Below, piece after piece: positions 1-64,000 of a stretch of 64,000 bases of DNA; position 1 is the stretch's first letter, and each line of letters starts with the position of its first letter. The notes beneath the pieces were generated by a model. That model made no database searches, was not told the DNA's origin, and worked only from the letters and a program-made list of their open reading frames with translations. Source of the DNA: Microbacterium sp. SSM24 (lineage in GTDB: Bacteria > Actinomycetota > Actinomycetes > Actinomycetales > Microbacteriaceae); assembly GCF_025989145.1 (NCBI RefSeq), contig NZ_JAPDNQ010000002.1:248001-312000 (forward strand), in the 5' to 3' direction. Made by a program: the position numbers and the translations under genes.

Positions 1-635
1 CCGACGTCGTGAGCCAGATCGCGCGTGAGATCGCGGCCGCCGTGGATCGCGTCGAGATCTCGATCGTCGTCGGCGGGGGCAACTTCTTCCGCGGCGCGGA
101 GCTCAGTCAGCGCGGTATGGACCGCGGGCGGGCCGACTACATGGGCATGCTCGGGACCGTCATGAACGCGCTGGCGCTGCAGGACTTCCTCGAGCAGGCG
201 GGCGCCGCCACCCGCGTGCAGTCGGCGATCTCGATGACCCAGGTCGCCGAGCCCTACATCCCGCGGCGGGCCGAGCGCCACATGGAGAAGGGCCGCGTCG
301 TCATCTTCGGCGCCGGCGCGGGCCTGCCCTACTTCTCCACCGACACGGTCGCGGCACAGCGCGCACTCGAGATCGACGCGCAGGAGGTCCTGGTCGCGAA
401 GAACGGCGTCGACGGCGTGTACACGGCCGATCCCCACAAGGACCCCTCGGCGACCAGGATCGATCGCATCACCTACCTGGATGCGCTGCAGCGCGGCCTG
501 AAGGTGGTCGACTCCACGGCCTTCAGCCTCTGCATGGACAACAAGATGGACATGCGCGTGTTCGGCATGGAGCCCGCAGGCAATGTCACCCGTGCGCTTC
601 TGGGCGAGCCGATCGGCACTCTGGTCACGGCGTGA
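1..635 (+). CDS. pyrH: UMP kinase (uridylate kinase), 5' end outside window
   Basis: Uridylate kinase phosphorylates UMP to UDP with ATP in the cytosol. The window opens inside the gene: the frame is already open at base 3 and about 210 residues are visible. Roughly 30 N-terminal residues, with the first phosphate loop, therefore lie off the edge. Visible family motifs are GGGNFFRG (nucleotide loop), [14 protein letters not shown] (UMP pocket helix), [13 protein letters not shown] and the C-terminal [13 protein letters not shown]. The GTG at base 9 is an internal codon, not the start. frr follows 50 bases downstream on the same strand, the usual actinobacterial order. Confidence 0.96.
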
Positions 636-649
636 AACGCCGCCCTGAG

Positions 650-655
650 TAGACT
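650..655 (+). promoter_or_regulatory. -10 hexamer TAGACT upstream of frr
   Basis: TAGACT lies in the pyrH-frr gap, 30 bases before the frr GTG. It predicts a short leader that contains the AAGGAG ribosome site at 675-680. No good -35 is visible. Confidence 0.5.
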
Positions 656-685
656 GGACCGAGCCCACCCCATGAAGGAGACACA

Positions 686-1240
686 GTGATCGCGGACGTC
701 TTGGCCGATGCCGGAGCGCGCATGGACCGCGCCGTCGAGGCTGCGAAGGAGGACTTCGCGACCGTTCGCACCGGACGTGCCAACCCGCAGCTGTTCCAGA
801 AGATCCTCGTCGACTACTACGGCACCCCCACGCCGCTGGCCCAGCTCGCCTCGATCAACAACCCCGAGGCGCGCACGCTGATCATCACGCCCTACGACAA
901 GTCGGCGCTGAAGGGGATCGAGCAGGCCATCCGCGACATCCCGAACCTCGGCGTCAACCCCACGAACGACGGCAATCTCGTGCGCGTGACGATGCCCGAG
1001 CTCACCGAGGAGCGCCGCAAGGAGTACGTGAAGCTCGTGCGCTCCAAGGGCGAGGACCACAAGGTGCATCTGCGCGGCATCCGACGCAAGTCCAAGGACG
1101 ACATCGACGCCCTCAAGAGCGAGGTCGGCGAAGACGAACTGACCCGTGCCGAGAAAGAGCTCGACGCCCTCACGCGCGCGCACGTCGATGCCATCGACGA
1201 GGCACTCAAGCGCAAAGAGGCGGAGCTTCTCGAGGTCTGA
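686..1240 (+). CDS. frr: Ribosome recycling factor
   Basis: RRF works with EF-G to split the post-termination ribosome so that subunits can be reused. The 184-residue length equals the family norm. The N-terminal part holds [10 protein letters not shown] and [14 protein letters not shown], and the C-terminal triple-helix coiled coil holds [20 protein letters not shown] and [12 protein letters not shown]. The GTG at 686 is chosen because AAGGAG ends five bases before it; an ATG at 672 is out of frame. The gene sits between pyrH and cdsA, and seven bases separate its stop from the cdsA ATG. Confidence 0.98.
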
Positions 1241-1247
1241 GACCTGG

Positions 1248-2372
1248 ATGGCCGAAGAATCAGATGACGCGTTCGGGGGCGAGCAGTCCGCTCCCGATGC
1301 GCCGCTGACCCGTCGCGAGGCGGCGGAAGCGCGCCGCGCGGAGACGACGACGCCCGCGGCGCCGTCCGAGGGCGCGATCCCGCCGATTCCACCTCTGCCC
1401 GTCACGGCCGTCGCAGGCGCGCCGGAAGCCTCACCGGCCATCCAGGCGCACCTGCGCGCCGCGCGGACCGAGTTCGAGAGTCAGGTCGCGCACGCCCGGG
1501 CGGAGTTCGAGGAGGCGAACGAGCGGATCAAGCAGCGCACGGGCCGCGATCTCATCGTGGCGACGCTCATCGGCGTCGCCGCCGGCGCTGTTCTCATCGG
1601 CTCGCTGATCTTCGTCAAGCAGCTCTTCGTGGTCTTCGCGCTGGCAGCGGCGCTCCTGGGCGTCTTCGAGTTCGCGCGCGCCCTCCGGGCATCGGGCCGG
1701 CGTGTGGATGTGGTGCCCCAGCTCGTCGTCGGTGCAGTGGTCGTCCTCTCGGGATACTTCTTCGATGCCTGGCTGCACTGGGTCGTCATCTTCGTCGCGG
1801 TCGCCGTCGTGGTGGTGTGGCGCCTTCTGGTGCAGATGGCCAGCCGGGATGGGCGGACCTACGGCAACGTGCTCGCCGACGTCCTGATCGCCGGATTCGT
1901 CCAGCTCTACGTCCCGTTCCTGGCGAGCCTGTGCGTCGTCCTGCTCGCCCAGGAGGGCGGGGAGTGGTGGGTGCTGTCGTTCATCGCGGTCGTGGTCGCT
2001 GCCGACACCGGCGCGTATGCCGCAGGCCTCACGTTCGGCCGTCATCCGATGGCGCCGCGGATCAGCCCGAAGAAGACGTGGGAGGGCTTCGCGGGAGCGG
2101 TGGTCGCCTCCGCCCTGGCCGGCGTGCTCCTGGCCATCTTCCTCCTCGGCCTCGACTGGTGGATGGGCATCGTCATCGGAATCGTGATCCTGGGCACGGC
2201 TACCGCCGGTGACCTCGGGGAATCGATGATCAAGCGCGACATGGGCATCAAGGACATGAGCTCGTGGCTGCCGGGTCACGGCGGAGTGCTCGATCGACTG
2301 GACTCGATCCTGCCCTCCACGGCGGCGGCACTTGCTCTGTACTATCTCTTCACCCCCCTGGTGGCATCATGA
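1248..2372 (+). CDS. cdsA: Phosphatidate cytidylyltransferase (CDP-diacylglycerol synthase)
   Basis: CdsA makes CDP-diacylglycerol from phosphatidate and CTP, the branch point of phospholipid synthesis, in the cytoplasmic membrane. The 374-residue protein has a charged, Ala/Pro-rich cytoplasmic N-terminus of about 95 residues that E. coli CdsA lacks, then about eight hydrophobic segments. The C-terminus carries the CDP-alcohol signature SMIKRDMGIKD...GHGGVLDRLD from about Ser326. The frame stays open upstream across frr, but the ATG at 1248, just past the frr stop, gives a sensible start. Its TGA overlaps the ATG of the next gene (ATGA). Confidence 0.95.
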   Translation: MAEESDDAFGGEQSAPDAPLTRREAAEARRAETTTPAAPSEGAIPPIPPLPVTAVAGAPEASPAIQAHLRAARTEFESQVAHARAEFEEANERIKQRTGRDLIVATLIGVAAGAVLIGSLIFVKQLFVVFALAAALLGVFEFARALRASGRRVDVVPQLVVGAVVVLSGYFFDAWLHWVVIFVAVAVVVVWRLLVQMASRDGRTYGNVLADVLIAGFVQLYVPFLASLCVVLLAQEGGEWWVLSFIAVVVAADTGAYAAGLTFGRHPMAPRISPKKTWEGFAGAVVASALAGVLLAIFLLGLDWWMGIVIGIVILGTATAGDLGESMIKRDMGIKDMSSWLPGHGGVLDRLDSILPSTAAALALYYLFTPLVAS

Positions 2373-4767: not shown

Positions 4768-4797
4768 CCTCTCGCAGACGCCGGCCGCGGCATCCGC

Positions 4798-7926: not shown

Positions 7927-8873
7927 CCGATCCCGCCTCGGGCGCCGCTCTGCGCGGCGCCGTGGACCTCTCTGCGCTGCGCAATCGACCTGCCCCGTCG
8001 GCCGCGGGGGACGGGCAGGGGCCGGCAGGTGCGGCATCCGTGCCGTCGCTCGTGATGGACGTCACCGACGAGACGTTCCCCCAGGTGCTCGAACTGTCGC
8101 GCACGGTCCCGGTCGTCATCGACCTGTGGGCGGAGTGGTGCGGGCCGTGCAAGCAGCTGAGCCCCGTGCTCGAGCGCGTCGTCACAGAACTCGGCGGACG
8201 CCTCCTGCTCGCGAAGGTCGACGTCGACGCCAACCCGCAGCTGTCCCAGGCATTCCGCGCTCAGTCGATCCCGTTGGTCGTCGCGCTCGTCGCGGGTCAG
8301 CCGGTCCCGCTGTTCACGGGCGCCGTCCCCGAGCAGCAGGTGCGCGAGGTCTTCGCCCAGCTCCTCCAGCTCGCGGCGCAGAACGGCGTGACGGGAACGG
8401 TCACCGCAGACGGGGCGTCCGAGACGGATGCTGCGGCCGAAGCCCCCGCGGAGCCGCCGCTCCCGCCGCTGCACGCCGAGGCGTTCGACGCGATCGAGGC
8501 GGGCGACTACCCGCGCGCGATCGCCGCGTACGAGAAGGCGCTCGCCGAGAACCCGAGGGACGCCGAGGCGCGCGCCGGTCTGGGGCAGGTCCGCCTGCTC
8601 GATCGTGTGCAGGGCGCCGACCTGCAGGCCGCGCGTGACGCCGCTGCCGCGGCGCCGACGGACATCGAGGCGCAGTTCGCGGTCGCCGATCTGGATCTGG
8701 CCGGCGGACACGTCGAGGACGCCTTCGCGCGACTGCTCGACCTGTTCGCACAGCTGCCGTCCGACGATCGTGCGCCGGTGCGTGAGCGTCTGCTCGAGCT
8801 GTTCGCCCTGGTCGGCGACGGCGACCCGCACGTCATCCGCGCGAGGGGCAGCCTCTCGTCGCTGCTGTTCTGA
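7923..8873 (+). CDS. Thioredoxin-TPR protein (YbbN/CnoX-like)
   Basis: A 316-residue cytosolic protein. A low-complexity N-terminus of about 45 residues leads into a thioredoxin fold with an intact WCGPC active site (Cys73, Cys76), DVDANPQLSQAF and the cis-Pro SIPLVV. The C-terminal half has TPR-like helices (AIEAGDYPRAIAAYEKAL). E. coli CnoX is a redox-regulated holdase working with GroEL and lacks the reactive CxxC pair; this protein retains both Cys, so it could also act as a reductase. GTGA overlap with the upstream membrane protein gene implies co-translation. Confidence 0.92.
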   Translation: MTDPASGAALRGAVDLSALRNRPAPSAAGDGQGPAGAASVPSLVMDVTDETFPQVLELSRTVPVVIDLWAEWCGPCKQLSPVLERVVTELGGRLLLAKVDVDANPQLSQAFRAQSIPLVVALVAGQPVPLFTGAVPEQQVREVFAQLLQLAAQNGVTGTVTADGASETDAAAEAPAEPPLPPLHAEAFDAIEAGDYPRAIAAYEKALAENPRDAEARAGLGQVRLLDRVQGADLQAARDAAAAAPTDIEAQFAVADLDLAGGHVEDAFARLLDLFAQLPSDDRAPVRERLLELFALVGDGDPHVIRARGSLSSLLF

Positions 8874-40479: not shown

Positions 40480-40950
40480 TCAGTCAGCGGGCGGGACGGC
40501 GGTGACGGAGAGCGACGGACCGGATGCCGCATCCCGCCCGCCCGAAGCAGGGCCGATGCCGCTCGGCTCGAACGTGTTCACCATCGCATGCGCGGCGCGC
40601 TGCAGATAGTCCCACAGCGTGGCCTCGTGCAGCGGCGAGAGATGGAGCTCGTCGACCGCCACGCGCATGTGTGCGAGCCAGCGGTCGCGCGCATCCGGAT
40701 TGACGTGGAAGGGTGCGTGGCGCATCCGCAGGCGCGGGTGACCCCGTTGCTCGCTGTAGGTCGTCGGGCCGCCCCAGTACTGCTCGAGGAAGCCGGTGAG
40801 CCGCTCCTTGGCGGGACCGAGGTCCTCCTCGGGATACATCGGTCGCAGCACGTCGTCGTCGGCGACGCCGCGGTAGAACGCGTCGACCAGGCGCACGAAT
40901 GCGTCGTGACCGCCGATCTCGTCGTAGAAGCTCAGGGGAACGGCGCTCAC
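40480..40950 (-). CDS. Truncated haemoglobin, group II (HbO type)
   Basis: A 156-residue 2-on-2 globin. SFYDEIGGHDAFVRLVDAFY, the linker MYPEEDLGPAKERL and EQYWGGPTTYSEQRGHPRLR match mycobacterial HbO closely; the proximal His is His78 (RMRHAPFHV). HbO proteins bind oxygen tightly and are linked to peroxidase or NO chemistry. A tail of about 28 residues (GPASGGRDAASGPSLSV) is extra. GTG 40950 overlaps the MscS stop (GTGA). Confidence 0.94.
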   Translation of the reverse strand: MSAVPLSFYDEIGGHDAFVRLVDAFYRGVADDDVLRPMYPEEDLGPAKERLTGFLEQYWGGPTTYSEQRGHPRLRMRHAPFHVNPDARDRWLAHMRVAVDELHLSPLHEATLWDYLQRAAHAMVNTFEPSGIGPASGGRDAASGPSLSVTAVPPAD

Positions 40951-42026: not shown

Positions 42027-42033
42027 CGTGTCG

Positions 42034-42039
42034 ATCCTA
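42034..42039 (-). promoter_or_regulatory. Leaderless -10 for the MscS-family gene
   Basis: Minus-strand TAGGAT, seven bases before ATG 42026. Confidence 0.55.
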
Positions 42040-42092
42040 ACGACGGATGCCTCGGTCCCACCTGAACGCGGGGCCGAGGCATCCGATCACGA

Positions 42093-44639
42093 CTACTGCG
42101 CGTCGCGCTCCTGCACGGAGAGGGCGCGCTCGACGCCGGCGAGGTTCTCTGCGACGAGACGCCGCAGCGCCGGAGCGGCATCGGCGTGGGTCTCGAGCCA
42201 GCCGCGCGTGGCGTCGCGCAGCGCGAGGTTCGCGAGCGGCGACGGGTACAGCCCGAAGATCAGGTACTCGGCGATCTTGTAGCTGCGCGACTCCCAGATC
42301 GGCAGGAGCGCGGCGAAGTACGGCTCGACGTACGAGCCGAGCAGGTCGCGTCCCGCAGGATGCACGAAGCCGAGCGCGGCGGAGCGCACGATCGTGTTGG
42401 GCAGGTCGTCCTGATCGACGAGCGACGACCAGGCGGCGGCCTTCGCCTCGGCGGTCGGGAGTGCGGCCTTCGCCTGTGCGGCGAACTCACCGCCCTTCGC
42501 GGTGTTGTCGGCGGCGAGCGCCGCATCGATGTCGTCGCCGGTCACGACGCCTCCCGCGGCGAGACCCACGAGCAGCTGCCACGAGAGGTCGGTGTCGATG
42601 TCGAGTCCGGAGAACGACACCTCGCCCTCGCGCACGCGGCGAACATTCTCCCACTGCGCAGGCGTCGCCGCCGCGCTCGCGAAGGCGGTGACGAACTGCA
42701 GCTGGCTGTCGCTGCCCGCCTCGGCGCCCTCGGCCAGCGACCACAGGGCGTCGGCGACCTTCTGACGGGTGACGTCGCGCTTCTCGGGTGCGACATACGC
42801 GTTGGCGGCGAGCAGCAGCTGTGCGAGCGTGGTGCGCACGGTCGTCGACTCGGTCTCGGAGCCGATGTTGCGCAGCACGAGGTCGACGTAGTCGGAGGCG
42901 GACGCCTCGGCATCGCGCGTCTGATCCCAGGCCGCACCCCACACGAGCGAGCGGGCGAGCGGATCGCTGATCTTCGCGAGGTGGTCGATCGCCGTCTGCA
43001 GCGAGCGCTCGTCGAGCCGGATCTTCGCGTACGCGAGATCCTCGTCGTTGAGCAGCACGAGGTCGGGACGCTTCACTCCCTTGAGCGCGGGCATCTCAGT
43101 GAGGTCGCCGTCCACATCGAGCTCGACGTGATGCACGCGCACCAGGGTGTCGCCCTCGAGGGAGTAGAAGCCCACGCCGAGGCGGTGGGGACGGATGGTC
43201 GGGTAGTCGGCGGGAGCCGTCTGGACGATGGCGAAACGCGTGATGGTGCCGTCGACATCGGTCGCGATCTCGGGGGACAGGGTGTTGACTCCCGCGGTCT
43301 CGAGCCACTTCTTCGACCAGGTCGACAGCTCACGGCCGCTCGTGGTCTCGAGCTCTGAGAGCAGGTCGGAGAGCTCGGTGTTCGACCACTCGTGCTTCTT
43401 GAAGTACGCCGCGACACCCGCGAAGAACTGCTCGATGCCCACCCACGCGGCGAGCTGCTTGAGCACCGAACCGCCCTTGGCGTACGTGATGCCGTCGAAG
43501 TTGACCTGCACGTCCTCGAGATCGTTGATCTGAGCGACGACGGGGTGGGTGGAGGGGAGCTGGTCCTGGCGGTACGCCCAGGTCTTCTCCATCGCGTTGA
43601 ACGTGGTCCAGGCCTCGGTCCATTCGGTGGCTTCGGCGGTCGCGATGGTCGACGCCCATTCGGCGAACGACTCGTTCAGCCACAGGTCGTTCCACCACTT
43701 CATCGTCACGAGGTCGCCGAACCACATGTGGGCGAGCTCGTGGAGGATCGTGACGACGCGACGCTCCTTCACGGCATCGGTGACCTTCGAGCGGAAGACG
43801 TAGCTCTCGGTGAACGTGACCGCGCCTGCATTCTCCATCGCGCCCGCGTTGAATTCGGGCACGAAGAGCTGGTCGTACTTCTCGAACGGGTACGCGTAGT
43901 CGAACTTGTCCTCGAAGTAGGTGAAGCCCTGACGCGTCTTCTCGAAGATGTAGTCGGCGTCGAGGTACTGCCACAGGCTCTTGCGGCCGTACACGCCGAG
44001 CGGGACGACGCGCCCGGAGGCGCTGGTCAGTTCGGAGAACGTGGCTTCGTACGGTCCGGCGATGAGGGCCGTGATGTAGGAGGAGATGCGGGGGGTGACG
44101 GGGAACGCCCACGTCGCCGTCCCATCGCCGTGATCCTGCGGCTCGGGCGTGGGGGAGTTGGACACGACCTTCCACGCCGCGGGCGCGGTCACGGAGAACC
44201 GGAAGGTCGCCTTCAGGTCGGGCTGCTCGAAGACGGCGAACATGCGCCGCGAGTCGGGCACCTCGAACTGCGAGTAGAGGTACGCCTCGCCGTCGACCGG
44301 GTCGACGAACCGGTGGAGTCCCTCGCCGGTGTTCGTGTAGAGGCAGTCGGCGTCGATGACGAGCTCGTTCTCGGCGGCGAGGCCGGTGAGCGCGATGCGC
44401 GAGTCGGCGAACGCGGTCGCCGGGTCGATGGCGCGACCGTTGAGCGTGATCTGGCGGATGTGGCGCGCGATCAGGTCGATGAAGGTATCGGCGCCGGCGG
44501 TGGCCGAGAAGCGGATGACAGTGCGCGACGCGAAGACCTCGGCACCCTTCGTCAGGTCGAGCACGACGTCGTACGAGTGCGTGTCGACGATGGCTCGGCG
44601 CTCTTGCGCCTCGATGCGGGTGAGGTTCTCTCCAGGCAC
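42093..44639 (-). CDS. pepN: Aminopeptidase N (M1 family)
   Basis: A cytosolic zinc aminopeptidase of 848 residues, the actinobacterial length. The exopeptidase motif is NAGAMENAGAVTF; zinc ligands are His300 and His304 of HELAH plus the Glu in NESFAEW. The C-terminal helical domain (ERAP1-C-like) is complete. GTG 44639 is chosen over GTG 44678 because GGGAG stands about eight bases upstream and homologues begin PGENLTRIEAQ. It contains just one GGATGC word in 2.5 kb, in line with its strong codon bias. Confidence 0.96.
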   Translation of the reverse strand: MPGENLTRIEAQERRAIVDTHSYDVVLDLTKGAEVFASRTVIRFSATAGADTFIDLIARHIRQITLNGRAIDPATAFADSRIALTGLAAENELVIDADCLYTNTGEGLHRFVDPVDGEAYLYSQFEVPDSRRMFAVFEQPDLKATFRFSVTAPAAWKVVSNSPTPEPQDHGDGTATWAFPVTPRISSYITALIAGPYEATFSELTSASGRVVPLGVYGRKSLWQYLDADYIFEKTRQGFTYFEDKFDYAYPFEKYDQLFVPEFNAGAMENAGAVTFTESYVFRSKVTDAVKERRVVTILHELAHMWFGDLVTMKWWNDLWLNESFAEWASTIATAEATEWTEAWTTFNAMEKTWAYRQDQLPSTHPVVAQINDLEDVQVNFDGITYAKGGSVLKQLAAWVGIEQFFAGVAAYFKKHEWSNTELSDLLSELETTSGRELSTWSKKWLETAGVNTLSPEIATDVDGTITRFAIVQTAPADYPTIRPHRLGVGFYSLEGDTLVRVHHVELDVDGDLTEMPALKGVKRPDLVLLNDEDLAYAKIRLDERSLQTAIDHLAKISDPLARSLVWGAAWDQTRDAEASASDYVDLVLRNIGSETESTTVRTTLAQLLLAANAYVAPEKRDVTRQKVADALWSLAEGAEAGSDSQLQFVTAFASAAATPAQWENVRRVREGEVSFSGLDIDTDLSWQLLVGLAAGGVVTGDDIDAALAADNTAKGGEFAAQAKAALPTAEAKAAAWSSLVDQDDLPNTIVRSAALGFVHPAGRDLLGSYVEPYFAALLPIWESRSYKIAEYLIFGLYPSPLANLALRDATRGWLETHADAAPALRRLVAENLAGVERALSVQERDAQ

Positions 44640-44780
44640 TGCAATGCTCCCGTGGGTGTGGGTGGATACGGCGGGCACGGCGTTGATGACACCGGCGGCA
44701 ACCGCTACAGCCTATTCCAGCCTCCGGTCCGGCGCGTCACCGATGAATCCCGGCGTCCCGGGCGGTGCGAGGATGGAGGA

Positions 44781-45980
44781 GTGATTTCGGCAGAAGACAC
44801 CTCGGTCCCTTTCGCGTCGCCGGCCGCGGCATCCGGATCCCCCTTCGTGGAGGAGTCCGTCGCCTACGACGGGATTCTCCTCGCGGGCTTCGGCGGGCCG
44901 GAGGGGCAGGACGACGTGATCCCGTTCCTGCGGAACGTCACGCGTGGCCGCGGAATCCCCGACGAACGGCTCGAAGAGGTCGCCCACCACTACCGGCACT
45001 TCGACGGCATCAGCCCGATCAACGCCCAGAACCGCGCGCTCAAGGCGGCGCTGGAGGCGGAATTGGAGCGTCGGGGGATCGCCCTGCCCGTCTTCTGGGG
45101 CAACCGCAACTGGGCGCCGTATCTCGAGGAGGCGGTGACGGATGCCGCATCCTCCGGCCGCACCAACCTGCTGGCCCTCGCGACCAGCGCGTACTCCTCG
45201 TTCTCGAGCTGCCGGCAGTACCGCGAAGACTTCGCGCGCGTGCTCACCGACACCGGTCTCGCCGGCACCGTCACGATCGACAAGGTGCGGCAGTTCTTCG
45301 ATCACCCCGGATTCGTTCAGCCGTTCGTCGACGGGGTGCGCGATGCGGTGGCGGGATTCCTTGCCGACGGCATCCCGCCGGAATCGGTGCGGGTGCTTTT
45401 CTCGACGCACAGCATTCCGACCGCCGATGCCGAGCGCTCGGGGCCCCGTGAGGGCGACCCCGCGCATCGAGACCTCGGCGAGGGCGGCGCCTATGCCGCG
45501 CAGCACCTCGCGGTCGCGGAGGTCGTGATGGCGGCCGTCGCAGCCGAGATCCCGTCCGCTGCGCGCATCGGCTGGGAGCTGGTCTACCAGAGCCGCTCCG
45601 GTCCGCCGAGCCAGCCGTGGCTCGAACCCGACGTCAACGACGTCATCGCCGATCTGCCGGGCGCCGGCGTCGCAGCCATCGCCATCGTGCCGCTGGGCTT
45701 TATGAGCGACCACATGGAGGTTCTCTGGGATCTCGACACGGAGGCGATGGATGCCGCCGCCGAGGTCGGCATCCGTGCCGTCCGCACGCAGACCCCCGGT
45801 GTCGATCCCGTGTTCGTCTCGGGGCTGATCGACCTCGTCGTCGAGCGCCTCGAGGGAACACCGGCCGTGGATCGGCCGCACGCGACGAACCTCGGACCCT
45901 GGTTCGACGTGTGCCGTCCGGCGTGCTGCGAGAACGTGCGCGCAGGCTTCAAGCCGGCCGCCGCCGGCATCGCGCCCTGA
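44781..45980 (+). CDS. hemH: Ferrochelatase (coproporphyrin ferrochelatase in actinobacteria)
   Basis: Inserts iron into the porphyrin; in actinobacteria the substrate is coproporphyrin III. It has 399 residues, longer than usual because of an N-terminal extension of about 25 and an extended C-terminus. Active-site His210 lies in FSTHSIPTAD; the acidic site is in WELVYQSRSGPPSQPWLEPD. Cys144 (SSCRQY) and Cys378, 382, 383 (DVCRPACCEN) suggest the [2Fe-2S] cluster reported for mycobacterial ferrochelatase. GTG 44781 follows GGAGGA closely and GAGGA further out. Confidence 0.94.
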   Translation: MISAEDTSVPFASPAAASGSPFVEESVAYDGILLAGFGGPEGQDDVIPFLRNVTRGRGIPDERLEEVAHHYRHFDGISPINAQNRALKAALEAELERRGIALPVFWGNRNWAPYLEEAVTDAASSGRTNLLALATSAYSSFSSCRQYREDFARVLTDTGLAGTVTIDKVRQFFDHPGFVQPFVDGVRDAVAGFLADGIPPESVRVLFSTHSIPTADAERSGPREGDPAHRDLGEGGAYAAQHLAVAEVVMAAVAAEIPSAARIGWELVYQSRSGPPSQPWLEPDVNDVIADLPGAGVAAIAIVPLGFMSDHMEVLWDLDTEAMDAAAEVGIRAVRTQTPGVDPVFVSGLIDLVVERLEGTPAVDRPHATNLGPWFDVCRPACCENVRAGFKPAAAGIAP

Positions 45981-46038
45981 CCCCCGGCATGGCCCCCTGA
46001 CCGCCGTCACCCGCGCCGGAAGCCCCGGCGCCGCTCCC

Positions 46039-46044
46039 TAGGAT
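46039..46044 (+). promoter_or_regulatory. Leaderless -10 for rpiB
   Basis: TAGGAT with seven bases to ATG 46052. It favours that start over ATG 46043, which overlaps the hexamer. Confidence 0.55.
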
Positions 46045-46051
46045 GGTGCCC

Positions 46052-46597: not shown

Positions 46598-46604
46598 CCC
46601 GGCG

Positions 46605-47603: not shown

Positions 47604-47630
47604 TCACGGCCCCGGGCCGGCGCCGACCGT

Positions 47631-47636
47631 AGGCTG
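47631..47636 (+). promoter_or_regulatory. Leaderless -10 for the PaiB-type gene
   Basis: TAGGCT, spacer GGGAGCC minus its last base (six bases), ATG 47643. Confidence 0.55.
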
Positions 47637-47642
47637 GGAGCC

Positions 47643-49783: not shown

Positions 49784-49871
49784 CGTCCGGCGTGGAGGGG
49801 GGGTCAGCCCCCGTCTCGATCGGGGTGGGGATCGGATGCCGTCCCGCGGCCTCGCTCACGAGGCTGGAGTC

Positions 49872-53477: not shown

Positions 53478-53480
53478 CAC

Positions 53481-53516
53481 GCACAACGCCCCCGGCGGCG
53501 GCCGGGGGCGTTGTGC
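53481..53516. terminator. Strong bidirectional hairpin terminator
   Basis: Perfect 16-base stem GCACAACGCCCCCGGC with loop GGCG. It starts four bases after the response-regulator stop and lies 18 bases beyond the dps stop, so it serves both converging genes. No U-tract follows. Confidence 0.85.
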
Positions 53517-53534
53517 AGACTCAGGGGATCTCGA

Positions 53535-54017
53535 TCACTCGGCCAGGTGGGCGAAGAGGAACCAGCGGTCCTTCTCGAGCGTCTCCTTGATGCCGATCGC
53601 GACATCCTGGCTCGTGAGGTCGAACTCGTCGAGTCCGTCGATCGCGGCCTGGACGTCGGCGATCACGAGGTCCATGTCGGCGATCACGGTGCGGATGAGC
53701 GCATCCCACTGGGTGAACCCGGCAGGGACCGTGGAGGTGGTCTTGGCGGCGACCGTGCTCGCACGGGCGTCGATCGGCAGGCCCAGGGCGACGATGCGCT
53801 CGGCGGCCTGGTCGGCGCCGGCCTGCGCGTTGGCGACGACCGAGTCGAGCAGTTCGTGGATCGCGATGAAGTTGGCGCCGCGGACGTTCCAGTGAGCCTG
53901 CTTGCCGTTGACGGCGAGCGCCTGGAGCCCGAGGACCACGGGGGTGAGGAACTGGGCGCTGGCTGCGGCCACAGTCGGGTCGGCGGCGGTGGCGGGGGTG
54001 GTGTTCGTCTTCGTCAT
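53535..54017 (-). CDS. dps: Dps family DNA-binding ferritin
   Basis: Dodecameric iron-storing and DNA-protecting protein of 160 residues. The interface ferroxidase centre is complete: His42 (KQAHWNVRG), His54 (IAIHELLDS), Asp69 and Glu73 (AGADQAAER), with the spacing of Listeria Dps. The N-terminus is Thr/Ala-rich with only one Lys, so DNA binding may be weak. ATG 54017 follows GGAG at seven bases. The leader holds a 9-bp dyad. Confidence 0.95.
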   Translation of the reverse strand: MTKTNTTPATAADPTVAAASAQFLTPVVLGLQALAVNGKQAHWNVRGANFIAIHELLDSVVANAQAGADQAAERIVALGLPIDARASTVAAKTTSTVPAGFTQWDALIRTVIADMDLVIADVQAAIDGLDEFDLTSQDVAIGIKETLEKDRWFLFAHLAE

Positions 54018-54035
54018 GTCTCGTCTCCATCTTCG

Positions 54036-54065
54036 GGAGGACGCCTTCTGCGACGTGCGTCCTCC
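54036..54065. promoter_or_regulatory. Dyad in the dps leader
   Basis: GGAGGACGC (54036-54044), 12 bases, GCGTCCTCC (54057-54065). It lies between the predicted -10 and the ribosome site of dps. Confidence 0.5.
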
Positions 54066-54075
54066 AGTGGTTGCA

Positions 54076-54103
54076 ACGCTACTCAGACCGGGACATTCCG
54101 CAA
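54076..54103 (-). promoter_or_regulatory. Promoter of dps
   Basis: Minus strand: TTGCGG (54098-54103), 16-base spacer, TAGCGT (54076-54081). Confidence 0.5.
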
Positions 54104-54176
54104 GCAAGACAAGGCTCCGCTAACCCGGTGTCGCGAGCATCCGACCTGTCGGGACGGATTGTCAGCCCGGACCGGC

Positions 54177-54182
54177 TAACGT
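54177..54182 (+). promoter_or_regulatory. Leaderless -10 for the acyltransferase gene
   Basis: TAACGT, spacer CGTTGA, GTG 54189. Confidence 0.55.
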
Positions 54183-54188
54183 CGTTGA

Positions 54189-56333: not shown

Positions 56334-56342
56334 CCGGATCGA

Positions 56343-56348
56343 TAGGGT
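56343..56348 (+). promoter_or_regulatory. Leaderless -10 for the gamma carbonic anhydrase gene
   Basis: TAGGGT, spacer CGTGGC, ATG 56355. Confidence 0.55.
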
Positions 56349-56354
56349 CGTGGC

Positions 56355-56897
56355 ATGACGATCTCGCAAGACGCCGCCGTCCTCGCGGTCGCGGGGCGCG
56401 CCCCCGGCATCCATCCGGAGGCGTTCGTCGCCTCCGGCGCTCGCGTGATCGGAGACGTCACCCTCGCTGCGGGCGCCAGCGTCTGGTACAACGCGGTGCT
56501 GCGGGGCGACAGCGACACGATCACCGTTGGTGCGGGGAGCAATCTCCAGGACAACGTCTCCGTGCACGTCGATGCGGGCCACCCTGTCGTCATCGGCAGC
56601 AACGTGTCGGTGGGTCACAACGCCGTCGTGCACGGGTGCACGATCGGCGACGGATCGCTCATCGGCATGGGGAGCGTGGTTCTCTCGGGCGCAGTGATCG
56701 GAGACGGATGCCTCGTCGCGGCCGGTGCGGTCGTGCTCGAGGGCACGGTCGTCCCGCCGGGGTCTCTCGTGGCCGGTGTGCCGGCGAAGGTGCGACGGGA
56801 GCTCACCGACGAGGAGCGCGCGGGCATCGTGCGCAACGCCGACGCCTACCTCGCGCACCTGGCCGTGCACCGAGGTGCGAGGCCGACCGCCGGCTGA
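56355..56897 (+). CDS. Gamma carbonic anhydrase family protein
   Basis: A 180-residue left-handed beta-helix protein with hexapeptide repeats (VIGDVTLAAGASVWYNAVLR). Three His likely bind the metal: SVHVDAGHPVVIGSNVSVGH and NAVVHGCTIGDG. Length and lack of the acidic proton-shuttle loop place it with the CamH/YrdA group, in which carbonic anhydrase activity varies. Converges on a hydrolase gene with a single base between stops. Confidence 0.93.
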   Translation: MTISQDAAVLAVAGRAPGIHPEAFVASGARVIGDVTLAAGASVWYNAVLRGDSDTITVGAGSNLQDNVSVHVDAGHPVVIGSNVSVGHNAVVHGCTIGDGSLIGMGSVVLSGAVIGDGCLVAAGAVVLEGTVVPPGSLVAGVPAKVRRELTDEERAGIVRNADAYLAHLAVHRGARPTAG

Positions 56898-56898
56898 C

Positions 56899-57810
56899 TC
56901 AGTCGGCGCTCGCCTTGGGCGGCGGGTGGTGCTTGCCGCGGTGCACCTCGTAGAGCCGCACGTAGCCCGGCCATGACGGGTCGTTCACGATGGCCTCATC
57001 GTCCATGAAGGCACGGATGACGTGCGCGAGCTGGCCGGGGTGACTGAAGTTGATCGCGTGCGCCGCGCCCTCGAGGAGGACGACGAGGACGTGACTGTCG
57101 GTCTGACTCGCGATCTCATCGACACGGTGCGCGTGGGGGAGCAGCGGGTCGCGTTCGCCGAGCACCACGAGAGTGGGGATCTTCATCTCGAGCAGCCGCT
57201 GCAGCGACGGATACTGCGTCAGCGCCTTGAACATGCGCACCGTGCTGGGTACGCCGAAGCGCACGTAGTCGGGCACGGCGACGCGCGCCATGCGGGTGGG
57301 CTCGCGCGGGGCATCCTTCGAGAGCTGTGTGATCGCGCGGCGCAGCGGCTGGTTGAAGAGCCCGCCCGCGGGGGAGACGAGGACGGCGCGGTCGATCCGC
57401 TCCGGGTAGGTGTGGGCGAACTCGATGATGACGGGGCATCCCATCGAGTTGCCGACCAGCGTGGCCTTCTCGACGCCGCGGTCGTCCATGAAGTCGCGGG
57501 CCGCTTCGGCGAGGTCGGGGATGTCGAGCATGTCCCGCCGCTTTCCGCTGCGGCCGAAGCCCGGGAGGTCGGGCACATACGTGTGGAACTCGTCGGCGAG
57601 CCGCTCCGCCGTCGGCAGCAGGTAGCGACCGGACAGTCCGAAGCCGTGCACGTGCATCATCACGCGCGGGTCGTCGGGCCGCACCGGCGACTCCCGGTAG
57701 AAGACGTCGACGTCGTCGATGCGCGTCCACTTCTCGGCGAGGGTGGATGCTGGGCGGCGCGGCAGCTTCCGCGGCTTCGGCGCTTGTGCCGGCGGTGTCG
57801 GCTCGGCCAT
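56899..57810 (-). CDS. Alpha/beta hydrolase
   Basis: A 303-residue hydrolase of the epoxide-hydrolase/MhpC-like type: oxyanion HVHGFGLSGR, DLPGFGRSGKRRD, nucleophile Ser122 in LVGNSMGCPV, acid in LGERDPLLPH and His in LEGAAHAINFSHPGQL. Soluble, no signal peptide. GGGAG seven bases before ATG 57810 fixes the start. Its substrate cannot be read. Confidence 0.9.
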   Translation of the reverse strand: MAEPTPPAQAPKPRKLPRRPASTLAEKWTRIDDVDVFYRESPVRPDDPRVMMHVHGFGLSGRYLLPTAERLADEFHTYVPDLPGFGRSGKRRDMLDIPDLAEAARDFMDDRGVEKATLVGNSMGCPVIIEFAHTYPERIDRAVLVSPAGGLFNQPLRRAITQLSKDAPREPTRMARVAVPDYVRFGVPSTVRMFKALTQYPSLQRLLEMKIPTLVVLGERDPLLPHAHRVDEIASQTDSHVLVVLLEGAAHAINFSHPGQLAHVIRAFMDDEAIVNDPSWPGYVRLYEVHRGKHHPPPKASAD

Positions 57811-57996
57811 CGCGTTCTCCCTCGTGTGTCCGGTCCCTCTGCCGAATTCTGCCGCGCGGCGGCCGTGTGCGTAAGTATGAGGCGGAGGAAATCACCCTCC
57901 CGCCGTCGCACGGGGAGCGCAGCCCGGTGCCGAAGGCGAGAGGGTACCGTGGCAGGCGCGCCGCAGCGGGTGGCGCGGGAACCGGGAGGACGACCC

Positions 57997-59430
57997 ATGA
58001 GCATCGTGCGGGAGATCTTCCGTCGCAAGCCGGTCCTTCCGCCGGCACCGACGCCGGGCGGTCTGACTCGCGGTATCGGCACCTTCCAGCTCGCGATGCT
58101 GGGCGTCGGTGCGACGATCGGCACGGGCGTCTTCTTCGTCATGCATGAGGCCGTGCCGCTCGCCGGGCCCGCGGTCATCGTCGCGTTCGTGGTCGCCGCC
58201 ATCGCGGCCGGCCTGTCGGCGGTCTGCTACGCCGAGATGGCCTCGGCCGTGCCGGTGTCCGGATCGACCTACTCCTACGCCTACGCCACGCTCGGCGAGG
58301 TCGTCGCGATCGGCGTCGCCGCGTGCCTGGTGCTCGAGTACGGCGTGTCGACCGCGGCCGTCGCCTCGGGCTGGAGCGGCTACCTCGGTCGTCTCGTCGG
58401 AGATCTCTTCGGCTGGACCATCCCGACCGCGCTGACCGTGGGTCCGCTCGAGGGCGGGCTCATCAATCTGCCCTCGGTCGTGCTGGTCGGCCTGTGCGCG
58501 CTGCTGCTGATCCGAGGGACGCGGGAGTCGGCGACCGTCAACACCGTCATGGTGATCATCAAGATCGGCGTGCTGCTGATGTTCGGCGCGATCGCCATCA
58601 GCGCGTTCAACGCCGACAACTTCGCCGATTTCGCGCCGCACGGTGCTGCCGGCGTGACCGCCGCCGCCGGAACCATCTTCTTCACCTTCATCGGGCTCGA
58701 CGCCGTGTCCACGGCCGGGGACGAGGTGCGTGATCCGCAGCGGTCGCTGCCGCGGGCCATCCTGATCGCGCTGGCGGTCGTCGTGGCGGTGTACCTCTTC
58801 GTCGCTTTCGCCGCGGTCGGCGCGCAGCCGTGGCAGGACTTCGAGGACCCCGACCAGCAGAGCGCCGGTCTCGCCGTGATCCTCGGCGACGTGCTCGGCG
58901 CACAGTGGCCGGCGACCGTGCTCGCGGCCGGAGCGGTGATCTCGATCTTCTCGGTCACGCTCGTGACACTGTTCGGGCAGAGCCGCATCCTTCACGCCAT
59001 CGGACGGGACGGCCTGCTGCCGCGGCCGTTCGCCCGCGTGGCACCGCACACGCACACGCCGGTGTTCTCGACGGTCGTCGCGGCGGTGGTGGTCGCTCTC
59101 CTGGCCGGATTCATTCCGCTGTCGAACCTGTGGGACCTGGTGTCGATGGGCACCCTCGTCGCCTTCATCGTCGTGTCGCTGGCCGTGATGGTGCTGCGGC
59201 GCACACGACCCGACCTGCCCCGCGCATTCCGCGTTCCCGGGTATCCCGTCACGCCGATCCTGTCGATCCTGGCGTGCGGCTACCTGATCTCGGGTCTCGG
59301 CTGGGAGACGTACGCATGGTTCGCCGCGTGGGTCCTCGTCGTGCTCGCGTTCTACCTGCTGTGGGGCCGCCGTCACAGCCTGCTCGCGAGCGCTCGGGAG
59401 GGGACGGATGCCGCATCCCCGACTCCGTAG
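57997..59430 (+). CDS. Amino acid permease (APC superfamily)
   Basis: A 477-residue transporter with about 12 spans. The family features are LAMLGVGATIGTGVFFVMHE in span 1, FFTFIGLDAVSTAGDEVRDP near spans 6-7, and RPFARVAPHTHTPVFSTV. It is close to cationic amino acid (CAT/YfnA-type) permeases. ATG 57997 has GGGAGGA six bases upstream. The divergent gap to the hydrolase (186 bases) holds its promoter, though no clear -10 is evident. Confidence 0.93.
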   Translation: MSIVREIFRRKPVLPPAPTPGGLTRGIGTFQLAMLGVGATIGTGVFFVMHEAVPLAGPAVIVAFVVAAIAAGLSAVCYAEMASAVPVSGSTYSYAYATLGEVVAIGVAACLVLEYGVSTAAVASGWSGYLGRLVGDLFGWTIPTALTVGPLEGGLINLPSVVLVGLCALLLIRGTRESATVNTVMVIIKIGVLLMFGAIAISAFNADNFADFAPHGAAGVTAAAGTIFFTFIGLDAVSTAGDEVRDPQRSLPRAILIALAVVVAVYLFVAFAAVGAQPWQDFEDPDQQSAGLAVILGDVLGAQWPATVLAAGAVISIFSVTLVTLFGQSRILHAIGRDGLLPRPFARVAPHTHTPVFSTVVAAVVVALLAGFIPLSNLWDLVSMGTLVAFIVVSLAVMVLRRTRPDLPRAFRVPGYPVTPILSILACGYLISGLGWETYAWFAAWVLVVLAFYLLWGRRHSLLASAREGTDAASPTP

Positions 59431-59505
59431 CGAGGACTCCGCCACCGTCAACCCCATCCCGGTCTCCCGCGCATCGCGTTAGCGTGAATCGACGGAAGGA
59501 CTCTC

Positions 59506-60150
59506 ATGGCCCGCATCCTGATCTTCGGCGGACACGGAAAGGTCGCCCTGCTGCTCGAGCCGATGCTCGTGGCCCAGGGGCACACCGTGACAGCGGTCAT
59601 CCGCAACCCCGACCACGAGGCCGACGTCGCGGCGACCGGCGCGCAGCCGCTGGTGGCCGACATCGAGTCGTTGGACGTCGGCCAGCTGACCAACGTGATC
59701 GGCGGCAACGACGTCGTCATCTGGTCGGCCGGCGCAGGCGGCGGTGATCCCGCCCGCACATACGCCGTCGATCGCGACGCGGCGATCCGATCGATGACCG
59801 CAGCGTCGGCGGCCTCGGTCACGCGGTACGTCATGGTGTCGTGGATCGGTTCCCGCGAAGACCACGGCGTCGACGCGGAGTCTTCGTTCTTCGCCTATGC
59901 CGATGCGAAGTGGGCGGCCGACGCGCACCTCGCGGCGAGCGATCTGGACTGGACGATCCTCGCGCCGGGCACGCTCACCCTCGACGCTCCCACGGGCCGC
60001 ATCGCCCTCGACCCCGAAGGTCGCGGCGAGGTGTCGCGCGCGGATGTGGCCGCCGTGATCGCGGCGACCGTCTCCGACGACACGACGATCGGCCGCACTC
60101 TGCGGTTCGGTGCGGGGGACGAGCACATCGGCCACGCCGTGGCGGGCTGA
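59506..60150 (+). CDS. NAD(P)-binding Rossmann protein (atypical SDR)
   Basis: A 214-residue protein of the NAD(P)H-binding, NmrA/SDR_a5 type. The dinucleotide loop is ARILIFGGHGKVALLLE; other pieces are VVIWSAGAG and YADAKWAADAHLAAS with the Tyr/Lys-like pair displaced, so catalysis is doubtful. It may be a redox sensor or reductase. TAGCGT lies 32 bases before the ATG, with GGAAGGA as ribosome site, so this gene has a normal leader. Confidence 0.9.
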   Translation: MARILIFGGHGKVALLLEPMLVAQGHTVTAVIRNPDHEADVAATGAQPLVADIESLDVGQLTNVIGGNDVVIWSAGAGGGDPARTYAVDRDAAIRSMTAASAASVTRYVMVSWIGSREDHGVDAESSFFAYADAKWAADAHLAASDLDWTILAPGTLTLDAPTGRIALDPEGRGEVSRADVAAVIAATVSDDTTIGRTLRFGAGDEHIGHAVAG

Positions 60151-61709: not shown

Positions 61710-63158
61710 ATGACTACCGCAACGACCGCCCCGGCCACCAAGCAGGTCGCCATCAACGACATCGGATCTGCTGAGGACTTCCTGGCCGCGGTCGAATTGA
61801 CCCTCAAGTTCTTCAACGACGGCGACCTCATCGAAGGAACCGTCGTGAAGATCGACCGCGACGAGGTCCTCCTCGACGTCGGCTACAAGACCGAGGGTGT
61901 CATCCCCTCGCGCGAGCTCTCCATCAAGCACGACGTCGACCCCAACGAGGTCGTCAAGGTCGGCGACGCCGTCGAGGCGCTCGTTCTCCAGAAGGAGGAC
62001 AAGGAAGGCCGCCTCATCCTGTCGAAGAAGCGCGCTCAGTACGAGCGCGCCTGGGGTGACGTCGAGAAGATCAAGGAGAACGACGGTGTCGTGACCGGTT
62101 CGGTCATCGAGGTCGTCAAGGGTGGTCTCATCGTCGACATCGGCCTCCGCGGCTTCCTCCCCGCGTCGCTCATCGAGCTGCGCCGCGTCCGCGACCTCAC
62201 GCCGTACCTCGGCCAGGAGATCGAGGCGAAGATCCTCGAGCTCGACAAGAACCGCAACAACGTCGTGCTCTCGCGCCGCGCTCTGCTCGAGCAGACGCAG
62301 TCCGAGTCGCGCACCACGTTCCTGAACAACCTGCACAAGGGTCAGGTCCGCAAGGGCGTCGTCTCGTCGATCGTCAACTTCGGTGCGTTCGTCGATCTGG
62401 GCGGCGTGGACGGCCTCGTGCACGTCTCCGAGCTCTCGTGGAAGCACATCGAGCACGCCTCCGAGGTCGTCGAGGTCGGCCAGGAGGTCACCGTCGAGAT
62501 CCTCGAGGTCGACCTGGACCGCGAGCGCGTGTCGCTCTCGCTCAAGGCGACCCAGGAGGACCCGTGGCAGGTCTTCGCCCGCACGCACGCGATCGGTCAG
62601 GTCGCGCCGGGCAAGGTCACCAAGCTGGTCCCGTTCGGTGCGTTCGTGCGCGTCGCAGACGGCATCGAGGGCCTCGTGCACATCTCGGAGCTGTCGGGCA
62701 AGCACGTCGAGCTCGCCGAGCAGGTCGTGTCGGTCGGCGAAGAGGTCTTCGTCAAGATCATCGACATCGACCTCGAGCGTCGCCGCATCTCGCTCTCGCT
62801 CAAGCAGGCGAACGAGTCGGTCGACCCCAACGGCACCGAGTTCGACCCCGCCCTCTACGGCATGGTCACGGAGTACGACGAGAACGGCGAGTACAAGTAC
62901 CCCGAGGGCTTCGACCCCGAGACCAACGCCTGGCTCGAGGGCTTCGACGCCCAGCGCGAGAAGTGGGAGCAGGAGTACGCCGCTGCCCAGGGTCGCTGGG
63001 AGGCTCACAAGGCTGCTGTCGCCAAGGCCCTCGAGGCCGAGGCGAACGCGCCCGTCGAGACCGGCTCCTCGAGCTTCTCCTCGGAGAGCGCCTCGAGCGG
63101 CACGCTGGCCGACGACGAGGCTCTCGCCGCACTGCGCGAGAAGCTGTCGGGCCGCTGA
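61710..63158 (+). CDS. rpsA: 30S ribosomal protein S1
   Basis: S1 brings mRNA to the 30S subunit. The 482-residue actinobacterial form has four S1 OB-folds (about 35-105, 120-190, 205-280 and 290-365), each with a 'G-x-V...G-x-F-V' pattern such as GVVSSIVNFGAFVDLGGVDG and GKVTKLVPFGAFVRVADGIE. An acidic low-complexity tail follows (Glu/Ala/Ser-rich). ATG 61710 follows AAGGACA. Codon bias is extreme and the gene has no GGATGC/GCATCC word, unlike its neighbours. Confidence 0.98.
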   Translation: MTTATTAPATKQVAINDIGSAEDFLAAVELTLKFFNDGDLIEGTVVKIDRDEVLLDVGYKTEGVIPSRELSIKHDVDPNEVVKVGDAVEALVLQKEDKEGRLILSKKRAQYERAWGDVEKIKENDGVVTGSVIEVVKGGLIVDIGLRGFLPASLIELRRVRDLTPYLGQEIEAKILELDKNRNNVVLSRRALLEQTQSESRTTFLNNLHKGQVRKGVVSSIVNFGAFVDLGGVDGLVHVSELSWKHIEHASEVVEVGQEVTVEILEVDLDRERVSLSLKATQEDPWQVFARTHAIGQVAPGKVTKLVPFGAFVRVADGIEGLVHISELSGKHVELAEQVVSVGEEVFVKIIDIDLERRRISLSLKQANESVDPNGTEFDPALYGMVTEYDENGEYKYPEGFDPETNAWLEGFDAQREKWEQEYAAAQGRWEAHKAAVAKALEAEANAPVETGSSSFSSESASSGTLADDEALAALREKLSGR

Positions 63159-63237: not shown

Positions 63238-63268
63238 CGCCTGCTCCGACGATGTCGGAGCGGGTTCC

Positions 63269-63274
63269 TAGACT
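63269..63274 (+). promoter_or_regulatory. Leaderless -10 for the GIY-YIG gene
   Basis: TAGACT, seven-base spacer, GTG 63282. It rules against ATG 63252, which lies upstream of the hexamer. Confidence 0.6.
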
Positions 63275-63281
63275 CGCGTCC

Positions 63282-63833
63282 GTGCCCGATCAATGCCTCG
63301 TGAGGAGCGGATGCCGCGGCTCCGTCTCGCCGGAGTCGCCGGTGTCGCTGTGCGACTGGCACCTGGCGGCGGCATCCGAATGGGAGCAGTCCCGCCACGG
63401 AGTCACCGACGTCCTGCCGTCGCCGTGCGGTCTGTGCGGGTCGCCACTGGGCGTGCGGTACCCGTCCGGGTGGCTCTGCGCCGTGTGCGAATGGCGCCAC
63501 GGCGAACTCGTCGACCATGAGCTTCCGCCGCCCCGAGTCGACGTCGTGTACTACCTCCGCTTCGACGATCGGATCAAGATCGGCACGACGGGCAACCCCC
63601 GGCAGCGGCTGTCCGCGATCTGGCACCACGAGCTGCTCGCCTTCGAACGCGGGGACCGCACGCGCGAGCGCCGTCGCCACACGGAGTTCGCGGAAGATCG
63701 CTTCACCGGCACGGAGTGGTTCCGCCGGTCTCCGGCGCTGCTCGCGCACATCGACGTGCTCGCCGCGGGCGTCGATGATCCATGGGCCCTCCACGCGCGC
63801 TGGACCAGCGAGGCGATCGCCCGAGGCGCGTGA
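63282..63833 (+). CDS. GIY-YIG-like nuclease-family protein with Cys knuckles
   Basis: A 183-residue protein. The N-terminal half has CLVRSGC, LCDWH, PCGLCGSPLG and LCAVCEWRH, likely one or two zinc knuckles. The C-terminal half resembles the T5orf172/GIY-YIG fold: VVYYLRFDDRIKIGTTGNPR, a Lys/Arg-rich helix, and the probable metal Glu in GTEWFRR. In the canonical family 'GIY-YIG' is replaced by VYYL...KIG. A nuclease role is inferred from the family. Confidence 0.82.
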   Translation: MPDQCLVRSGCRGSVSPESPVSLCDWHLAAASEWEQSRHGVTDVLPSPCGLCGSPLGVRYPSGWLCAVCEWRHGELVDHELPPPRVDVVYYLRFDDRIKIGTTGNPRQRLSAIWHHELLAFERGDRTRERRRHTEFAEDRFTGTEWFRRSPALLAHIDVLAAGVDDPWALHARWTSEAIARGA

Positions 63834-63902
63834 ACCGAGGGCAGCGCCCGACGGTTTCCGATCCGTCTCGCGTGCCCCGCGCGCGGTTGGCGCGGCATCC
63901 GT

Positions 63903-63908
63903 TACTTT
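63903..63908 (+). promoter_or_regulatory. Leaderless -10 for the right-edge ORF
   Basis: TACTTT, spacer CACCAT, ATG 63915. Confidence 0.4.
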
Positions 63909-63914
63909 CACCAT

Positions 63915-64000
63915 ATGGTCGGCGCGCCGAACGGCGAACAGCGTCGCGCTCGGCGTCCGCCTGAAGCGCGCAGCACTCGCGCGCGCATGACCTGGCTGCG
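63915..64000 (+). CDS. Start of an unidentified gene, cut by the window edge
   Basis: An open frame of 28 codons from ATG 63915 to the window end, with a very basic start (MVGAPNGEQRRARRPPEA, then STRARMTWL). The hexamer six bases upstream fits the start pattern used by many genes here. Basic residues before a hydrophobic turn could lead into a membrane protein. It cannot be identified from this fragment. Confidence 0.4.
   Translation, partial: MVGAPNGEQRRARRPPEARSTRARMTWL

Follow-up and report, generated by a model that had tools for sequence, protein, structure and literature searches.

A densely iterated, non-palindromic GGAT word in Microbacterium sp. SSM24 and its relatives with features of a DNA uptake sequence

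Introduction

Why should one short word be so frequent in a bacterial genome that it bends codon choice? The question is raised by a stretch of 64,000 nucleotides from Microbacterium sp. SSM24 (Microbacteriaceae; contig NZ_JAPDNQ010000002.1, positions 248,001 to 312,000; hereafter the window), in which the hexamer GGATGC and its complement GCATCC are strongly over-represented. An earlier reading of the letters alone (the original prediction) compared the word to the cyanobacterial HIP1 and suggested methylation, repair or segregation as a driver. Here we analyzed the word in the window, in the source genome (3.4 Mb in three contigs), in a 464 kb sample of that genome (made up of the window and 20 other stretches, each of 20 kb), and in related genomes. 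The word proved longer than first noted, and by analogy with known systems it is probably a DNA-uptake-type self-recognition sequence of Microbacteriaceae.

Results

Abundance and extent of the word

The octamer GGATGCCG is found 3,639 times in the source genome, 1826 times forward and 1813 times reverse, at a density of about one copy per kb; the reversed GGATGCCG used as a control gave 99 forward and 77 reverse copies. Counts therefore stay high over the rest of the chromosome and do not fall to near expectation. In the 464 kb sample the word tops the 7-, 8-, 9- and 10-mers under Markov orders 2 and 3, and its excess becomes stronger with length (second-order Markov expectation): GGATGCC 677 vs 132, CGGATGCCG 283 vs 30, and, for the longest forms, GGATGCCGCG 215 vs 8.5 and CGGATGCCGC 204 vs 9.6. 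The 111 intergenic copies gave a logo of about rrCGGATGCC(G/T/C)CGgCC, i.e. about rCGGATGCCkCGgCC. The octamer GGATGCCG is non-palindromic and the extended logo is asymmetric. We concluded that the word exceeds the octamer noted earlier and spans ∼12–15 bp with its flanks.

Most one-base neighbours of GGATGCC were within twofold of expectation in the sample. GGATGTC (183 vs 76) and GGATGCT (130 vs 68) were raised, and the largest one-base deficit was that of GCATGCC (78 vs 144), a transversion. Among the neighbours of CGGATGCCG, of which the first base tolerates change, CGGATGTCG (52 vs 20), CGGATGCTG (42 vs 10) and CGGATGCCT (57 vs 10) were raised. Decay of methylated cytosine (C-to-T from GGACGC) had been hinted at by depleted CGGACG/GCGTCC in the window and was rejected as a source: GGACGCC stands at expectation in the sample (226 vs 226.9), and this origin is disfavoured because no one-base neighbour deficit matches the GGATGCC excess of 545.

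Exact counting in the window (69.4% GC) gave 59 GGATGC and 82 GCATCC on the plus strand and 60 octamers on both strands, close to the 57, 80 and about 58 of the original prediction. GGATGC ranked first among 6-mers under Markov orders 2–4 and third under order 1 (GGATGC/GCATCC 141 observed vs 65.2 expected under order 2). Among 8-mers, CGGCATCC/GGATGCCG ranked first under orders 1 to 3, the 60 copies comparing with 6.9, 8.3 and 11.2 expected, respectively; under order 6 the octamer is unremarkable (60 vs 49.3) because the excess already sits in its heptamers. The 13-mer GGATGCNGCATCC occurs three times in the window, at 40522, 45140 and 59406, encoding Asp-Ala-Ala-Ser in each case as predicted, with one start at 45140 instead of 45141. 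Genome-wide it has 50 copies and its reversed control 0.

1..64000, no strand assigned: whole window, 25 GGATGCCG on the plus strand and 35 of the complement CGGCATCC, 82 GGATGCC on both strands (exact counts)
40522..40534, plus strand: 13-mer GGATGCCGCATCC, two facing GGATGC copies 1 base apart, Asp-Ala-Ala-Ser
45140..45152, plus strand: 13-mer GGATGCCGCATCC, Asp-Ala-Ala-Ser
59406..59418, plus strand: 13-mer GGATGCCGCATCC, Asp-Ala-Ala-Ser, close to the 3' end of a gene for an amino-acid permease

Arrangement along the chromosome and hairpins at gene ends

The absence of strand polarity noted in the window held over 21 stretches (strand heterogeneity p 0.66, no significant correlation with GC skew). 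Word density was mildly uneven across these stretches (0.55–2.2 per kb, p 3e-4), and the spacing was near exponential. Two copies within 60 bp of each other were convergent in 28 cases vs divergent in 11 (464 kb), and among intergenic pairs 11 were convergent and 4 divergent. Nine of the 11 intergenic convergent pairs form stems at most 75 bp from the 3' end of a gene; the remaining two are located between the starts of divergent genes, and their folding is less regular. One such pair directly 3' of pepN, CGGATGCCTCGGTCC...GGCCGAGGCATCCG, forms a near-perfect hairpin (-37.4 kcal/mol by RNA folding), which is probably a terminator made of two word copies. This pair, the intergenic copies of CGGATGCCG in the window, and two genes discussed below are as follows.

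42042..42089, no strand assigned: convergent intergenic copies CGGATGCCTCGGTCC...GGCCGAGGCATCCG folding into the near-perfect hairpin directly 3' of pepN
4788..4796, minus strand: intergenic CGGATGCCG
8032..8040, minus strand: intergenic CGGATGCCG
44827..44835, minus strand: intergenic CGGATGCCG
49833..49841, plus strand: intergenic CGGATGCCG
63308..63316, plus strand: intergenic CGGATGCCG 3' of rpsA, facing the copy at 63370
63370..63378, minus strand: intergenic CGGATGCCG
63893..63901, minus strand: intergenic CGGATGCCG
61710..63158, plus strand: rpsA, S1 domains, zero GGATGC/GCATCC
42093..44639, minus strand: pepN (Pfam), one GGATGC

The lowest word densities were those of the 20 kb stretches L011 (0.55 per kb), which at 66.5% GC is also the GC-poorest stretch sampled, and L022 (0.65 per kb). 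It is possible that both are recently acquired DNA.

Codon choice follows the word

Genes were called with a purpose-made simple gene caller (420 genes, 88.6% coding in the sample). Synonymous-codon shuffling of the coding DNA of the window gave 11.7±2.9 copies of GGATGCCG (100 shuffles, maximum 20), vs 53 observed. The coding DNA of the sample contains 443 copies vs 101±8 in within-gene synonymous shuffles (maximum 123, 30 shuffles); shuffles that kept one or two bases of context on each side reached 123.5 and 160, respectively (20 shuffles each). The latter is our closest null to a codon-pair shuffle, and it did not reproduce the counts. Codon usage as the cause was rejected on these results, since both synonymous and neighbour-preserving shuffles remained well under the observed numbers. 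The original prediction that the word forces GAT for Asp and GCA in Ala-Ser holds in the sample: Asp after G and before GCC is encoded by GAT in 220 of 302 cases vs 19% of all Asp codons, and Ala after G and before TCC by GCA in 140 of 187 cases, whereas Ala codons preceded by G are GCA in 493 of 5,862 cases overall. The word is denser between genes (2.1/kb) than in coding DNA (1.38/kb). The shortfall of the shuffles together with this intergenic density indicates that codon choice follows the word, and the shuffles and chromosome-wide counts together support a highly iterated genomic word beyond codon usage. The rpsA gene lacks the word and pepN has one copy, as had been claimed; the fading of the word with codon selection that was read from them was not borne out over 292 genes, which showed no significant trend (Spearman -0.06, p 0.32).

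Dialects among relatives

Copies of GGATGCCG per strand ranged from 342 to 2,491 in 34 other genomes of genus g1 and from 122 to 486 in 23 genomes from other families within the order; across 299 genomes of the family the distribution is patchy. For dialect sampling, 32 genomes (11–60 kb each) were picked non-randomly for high, low or middling counts, with one 289-base piece and missing stretches excluded. The top 8-mer contained GGAT or ATCC in 11 of the 32, where chance would give ∼1 by rough arithmetic. The relatives have differing words with a common GGAT, namely CGGATGCTG, CGGATGGCC, GGATGCGG, GGATGACC, GGATGCCC and CGGATCCG. A follow-up set of 21 genomes was chosen partly for earlier signal. 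Best words (observed/expected) were GGATGCTG in G142 (50/1.9), GGATGCGG in G077 (49/4.3) and G083 (47/8.1), GGATGGCC in G032 (34/5.5), GGATGACC in G109 (29/4.6), GGATGCCC in G068 (26/3.2), and CGGATCCG in G220 (106/21.2) and G091 (58/11.7). A clear GGAT word was not found in the sampled stretches of G108, G071, G102, G090, G074, G073 and G125 of the 21-genome set. Whole-genome dialect counts cover the CCG and CTG forms only: CGGATGCTG reached 976/967, 780/782, 480/466, 494/536 and 153/163 copies per strand in five g23 genomes and 4–195 per strand in the other 27 genomes. The dialects keep GGAT and vary in the 3' half, and CGGATGCCG, CGGATGGCC and CGGATCCG all occur inside g1. We concluded that dialects differ between genera and within g1; we place CGGATCCG among them with less confidence.

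Two apparently local repeats were noticed in these genomes. In both g56 genomes, CGGATGCTG is repeated mostly at multiples of 24 bases (G091:C1:871710-871934 and G165:C1:1326058-1326333), apparently as a local tandem repeat. In G073 (L039 and L040), CACGCCCACG occurs 18 times in 40 kb with overlapping variants, and it resembles a local tandem repeat more than a genome word.

Turnover of word positions between congeners

Window positions 42001–60000 were aligned to 10 congeners, with same-letter 7-mers as controls. The word was kept at 19 of 91 orthologous word positions, vs 2442 of 11223 for control words. The closest congener, G010, keeps 9 of 11 words (control 27%), and the nine remaining congeners combined keep 10 of 80. 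In the aligned DNA, G220 has 15 and G032 has 6 words of their own dialect, none of them at the word sites of the window. The word is not tied to position over the divergence of the aligned congeners.

Competence and pilus genes

In the source genome, comEA (SLBB plus HHH_3) overlaps comEC in one operon. A compact operon TadA-TadB-TadC-Flp-TadE-TadF-TadG (Tad-1; G000:C2:69.4-73.9 kb) has Pfam support for the ATPase, two T2SSF proteins, TadE and a Tad/TadG-like protein; its Flp and TadF were named by position and size. A second Tad ATPase (Tad-2) is encoded at G000:C1:360303-361205. All 46 genomes searched have ComEC, whether or not they carry the word, and it was rejected as a discriminator; Tad-2 (31 of 31 genomes) was rejected likewise. 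TadE (PF07811) was detected in 29 of 32 genomes; the three in which it was missed, G108, G177 and G092, are all low in GGATGCCG (41–273 per strand). A pattern search of the flanks of ComEC in relatives detected comEA at 1 of 7 loci in one set and 0 of 20 in another. PilB-type type IV pili were rejected as the driver: 12 of the 28 genomes searched have PF05157, and it was not detected in G010 and G034, both word-rich. The source genome itself has PilB-type (MshEN, PF05157) domains at G000:C2:213113-213322 and C2:765767-766027, and may thus also have genes for a type IV pilus or related genes.

We compared Tad-1 carriage with word counts in 231 family genomes that are at least 90% complete and at least 2.0 Mb in size (68 of 299 dropped). 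Genomes that matched the TadA-1 profile at E < 1e-80 were taken as carriers, among them three with values of 1e-87 to 1e-97, and 23 genomes without a Tad-1 match were identified by subtraction. With kinship ignored, the median number of GGATGCCG per strand per Mb was 210 in 161 carriers vs 103 in 70 non-carriers (p 1.4e-11), and at the genus level the association gave p 2.2e-4 (49 vs 20 genera). A level of 300 or more per strand per Mb was reached by 47 of 161 carriers vs 2 of 70 non-carriers, so that Tad-1 is present in 47 of the 49 richest genomes. The link of the word to a competence-type pilus is loose. In 15–16 sequences, TadA, TadB and TadC each had one column splitting the CCG dialect from the others at p<0.01, as chance could give.

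Phage genomes

Four Microbacterium phages (168.8 kb pooled), with host dialects not identified, were searched for the word. The 9-mer CGGATGCCG shows no excess in the pooled genomes (6 vs 6.3 expected), which makes them a partial control for foreign DNA.

Discussion

Comparison with known systems

The resemblance is closest to the DNA uptake sequences (DUS) of Neisseriaceae, which, in passages of PMC3630211, have eight dialects with a common three-base core and intragenic copies, and form inverted pairs that are numerous in all dialect genomes and suggestive of terminators. The word here, like the 10–12 nt DUS that are read by the receptor ComP, is non-palindromic, present in hundreds to thousands of copies singly or in terminator-type inverted pairs, and divided into dialects around an invariant core (PMC3630211, in part). 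Unlike DUS, it has a GGAT core and not CTG, its host is a Gram-positive actinomycetote, and the proposed pilus is of the Tad/Flp type instead of a type IV pilus with ComP. Uptake signal sequences (USS) of Pasteurellaceae have flanking preferences. They are likewise high-copy words, with a minor pilin as predicted receptor according to a portion of PMC12616744 (2025), which also names Neisseriaceae and Pasteurellaceae as the only families known to tell DNA apart by motifs of this kind; the sequence is unrelated to ours, which is rich in GC, as is its downstream arm.

The HIP1 word of cyanobacteria is a highly iterated palindromic octamer. The likeness drawn in the original prediction stands as far as iteration goes and is otherwise a loose analogy, since our word is non-palindromic, longer (∼12–15 bp), denser intergenically, paired in hairpins, and split into GGAT dialects. 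Chi and KOPS are short over-represented words that are strand-polarised; unlike them our word has no polarity, and both were rejected as candidates on this ground.

A similar set of genes is found in Micrococcus luteus, in which comEC and comEA are present and two tad clusters are needed for transformation and pilus formation (PMC4322843, in part); the source genome likewise has two Tad loci and comEA-comEC. Unlike the case made here, the term 'uptake sequence' goes unmentioned for M. luteus in the main text of PMC4322843. By eye only, the N-termini of M. luteus TadF and Flp, as given in part of PMC6370729, resemble Tad-1 TadF and Tad-2 Flp. Searches of an open-licence library gave no report of a DNA uptake sequence for Microbacterium, nor of an over-represented one for Actinobacteria. 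Judged by title, the papers listed for uptake signal sequences in Actinobacteria were not on this subject, and those listed for uptake sequences in Gram-positive transformation did not deal with Actinobacteria. Among the matches listed, published occurrences of GGATGCCG look like primers or oligonucleotides by title and start of abstract.

A DNA-uptake-type word and its rivals

The asymmetry, length, intergenic enrichment, gene-end hairpins and GGAT dialects of the word are typical of DNA uptake sequences, not of HIP1, methylation sites or segregation signals. In density, asymmetry, hairpin pairs and dialects the word is DUS-like, and it is a candidate member of that class. We therefore favour, on analogy, a self-recognition sequence of the DNA-uptake type. 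A minor pilin of the Tad (Flp) pilus, or another surface component, would bind word-bearing DNA, and the pilus would then deliver it to ComEA/ComEC. Homologous recombination would fix word-bearing alleles more often, and molecular drive via transformation could accumulate the word wherever the protein sequence allows, bending codon choice; a changed receptor specificity might start a new dialect. In its wider form, toward which we lean slightly, the proposal is a family-wide self/non-self transformation language with at least six GGAT dialects read by a component of the Tad (Flp) pilus. It would be a third, independently evolved uptake-sequence system and the first in Gram-positives, with the dialect switches in g1 acting as gene-exchange barriers.

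Several observations weigh against this proposal. The dialect CGGATCCG (G220 and G091) is palindromic, contains GGATCC and is less enriched. The Tad-2 ATPase is present in all 31 genomes, word-rich or otherwise, and the Tad-1 statistics ignore phylogeny and cover one dialect only. G083 and G068 have dialect words with no Tad-1 match, G171 (g65) and G208 are word-rich without Tad-1, and G073, G090 and G125 have Tad-1 and no clear GGAT word in 40–60 kb. No column of TadE, TadF, TadG or Flp splits the CCG dialect from the others at p<0.01, in a comparison of low power (15–16 sequences). The pooled phages still hold 34 copies of the 8-mer GGATGCCG vs 16.8 expected (the host excess is about 8.5-fold), and phage Clayda5 alone has 13 vs 3.9. 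Finally, Microbacterium acquired a spiked synthetic plasmid in mixed culture according to part of PMC10257627, and any preference therefore need not be absolute.

The most serious rival, which we consider unlikely on the indirect evidence of word counts and arrangement, is a HIP1-like or modification-linked word that a methyltransferase or repair system keeps or makes with no role in uptake. A high-copy, unpolarised and codon-bending word would fit, and some HIP1-type words are linked to methylation; but no one-base neighbour shows a deficit able to feed the excess of 545 (GGACGCC 226 vs 227, GCATGCC 78 vs 144), and the specificity extends over at least 12 bases in a non-palindromic logo. Neither the hairpin pairs at gene ends nor dialects that retain GGAT while the 3' half changes agree with it. 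A Chi-like or other hotspot of recombination or replication restart, read by RecBCD/AddAB-type enzymes or FtsK, would account for a short word that is dense in the host and, as the 9-mer, not enriched in the pooled phages. We regard it as improbable in view of the missing polarity, whether over 21 stretches (p 0.66) or in total (1826/1813), the dialect differences within one genus (G032 and G220), and the hairpin arrangement.

Slightly less probable again is a chromosome-wide binding site of a nucleoid or chromosome-organising protein, to which the wide distribution (0.55–2.2 per kb over 21 stretches) and the long logo, resembling a binding site, would be suited. Across the pooled congeners, however, the sites are no better conserved than controls, though the closest keeps 9 of 11; the gene-end hairpins would have no reason, and the dialects would need repeated rewiring of a chromosomal DNA-binding protein. 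An artefact of codon-pair or amino-acid usage, or a mobile hairpin element seeding the genome, is very improbable. Asp-Ala, Ala-Ser and Gly-Ile do account for part of the counts, and hairpins are present; but the artefact is largely contradicted by the synonymous and two-base-context shuffles (101 and 160 vs 443) and by the higher non-coding density, and the mobile element by only 28 close convergent pairs among 677 GGATGCC copies.

If the DNA-uptake proposal is true, a third system in another phylum and with another pilus type would imply that such words evolve repeatedly. It would offer many species with dialects for studying the co-evolution of receptor and word, and would account for the strong codon bias of a large family of bacteria. 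The proposal also points to a simple test of their natural transformability.

Other repeats in the source genome

Two further observations came from the 464 kb sample of the source genome. Words around GCACAAACGGA have 18–20 copies, far over expectation. An interspersed inverted-repeat element with the ends CCGGCGCATAACTCCTGCA and TGCAGGAGTTATGCGCCG ∼80 bases apart is present in several copies (L009:10203-11400 and L018:3876-4135) and has the look of a family of small palindromic (REP-like) repeats.

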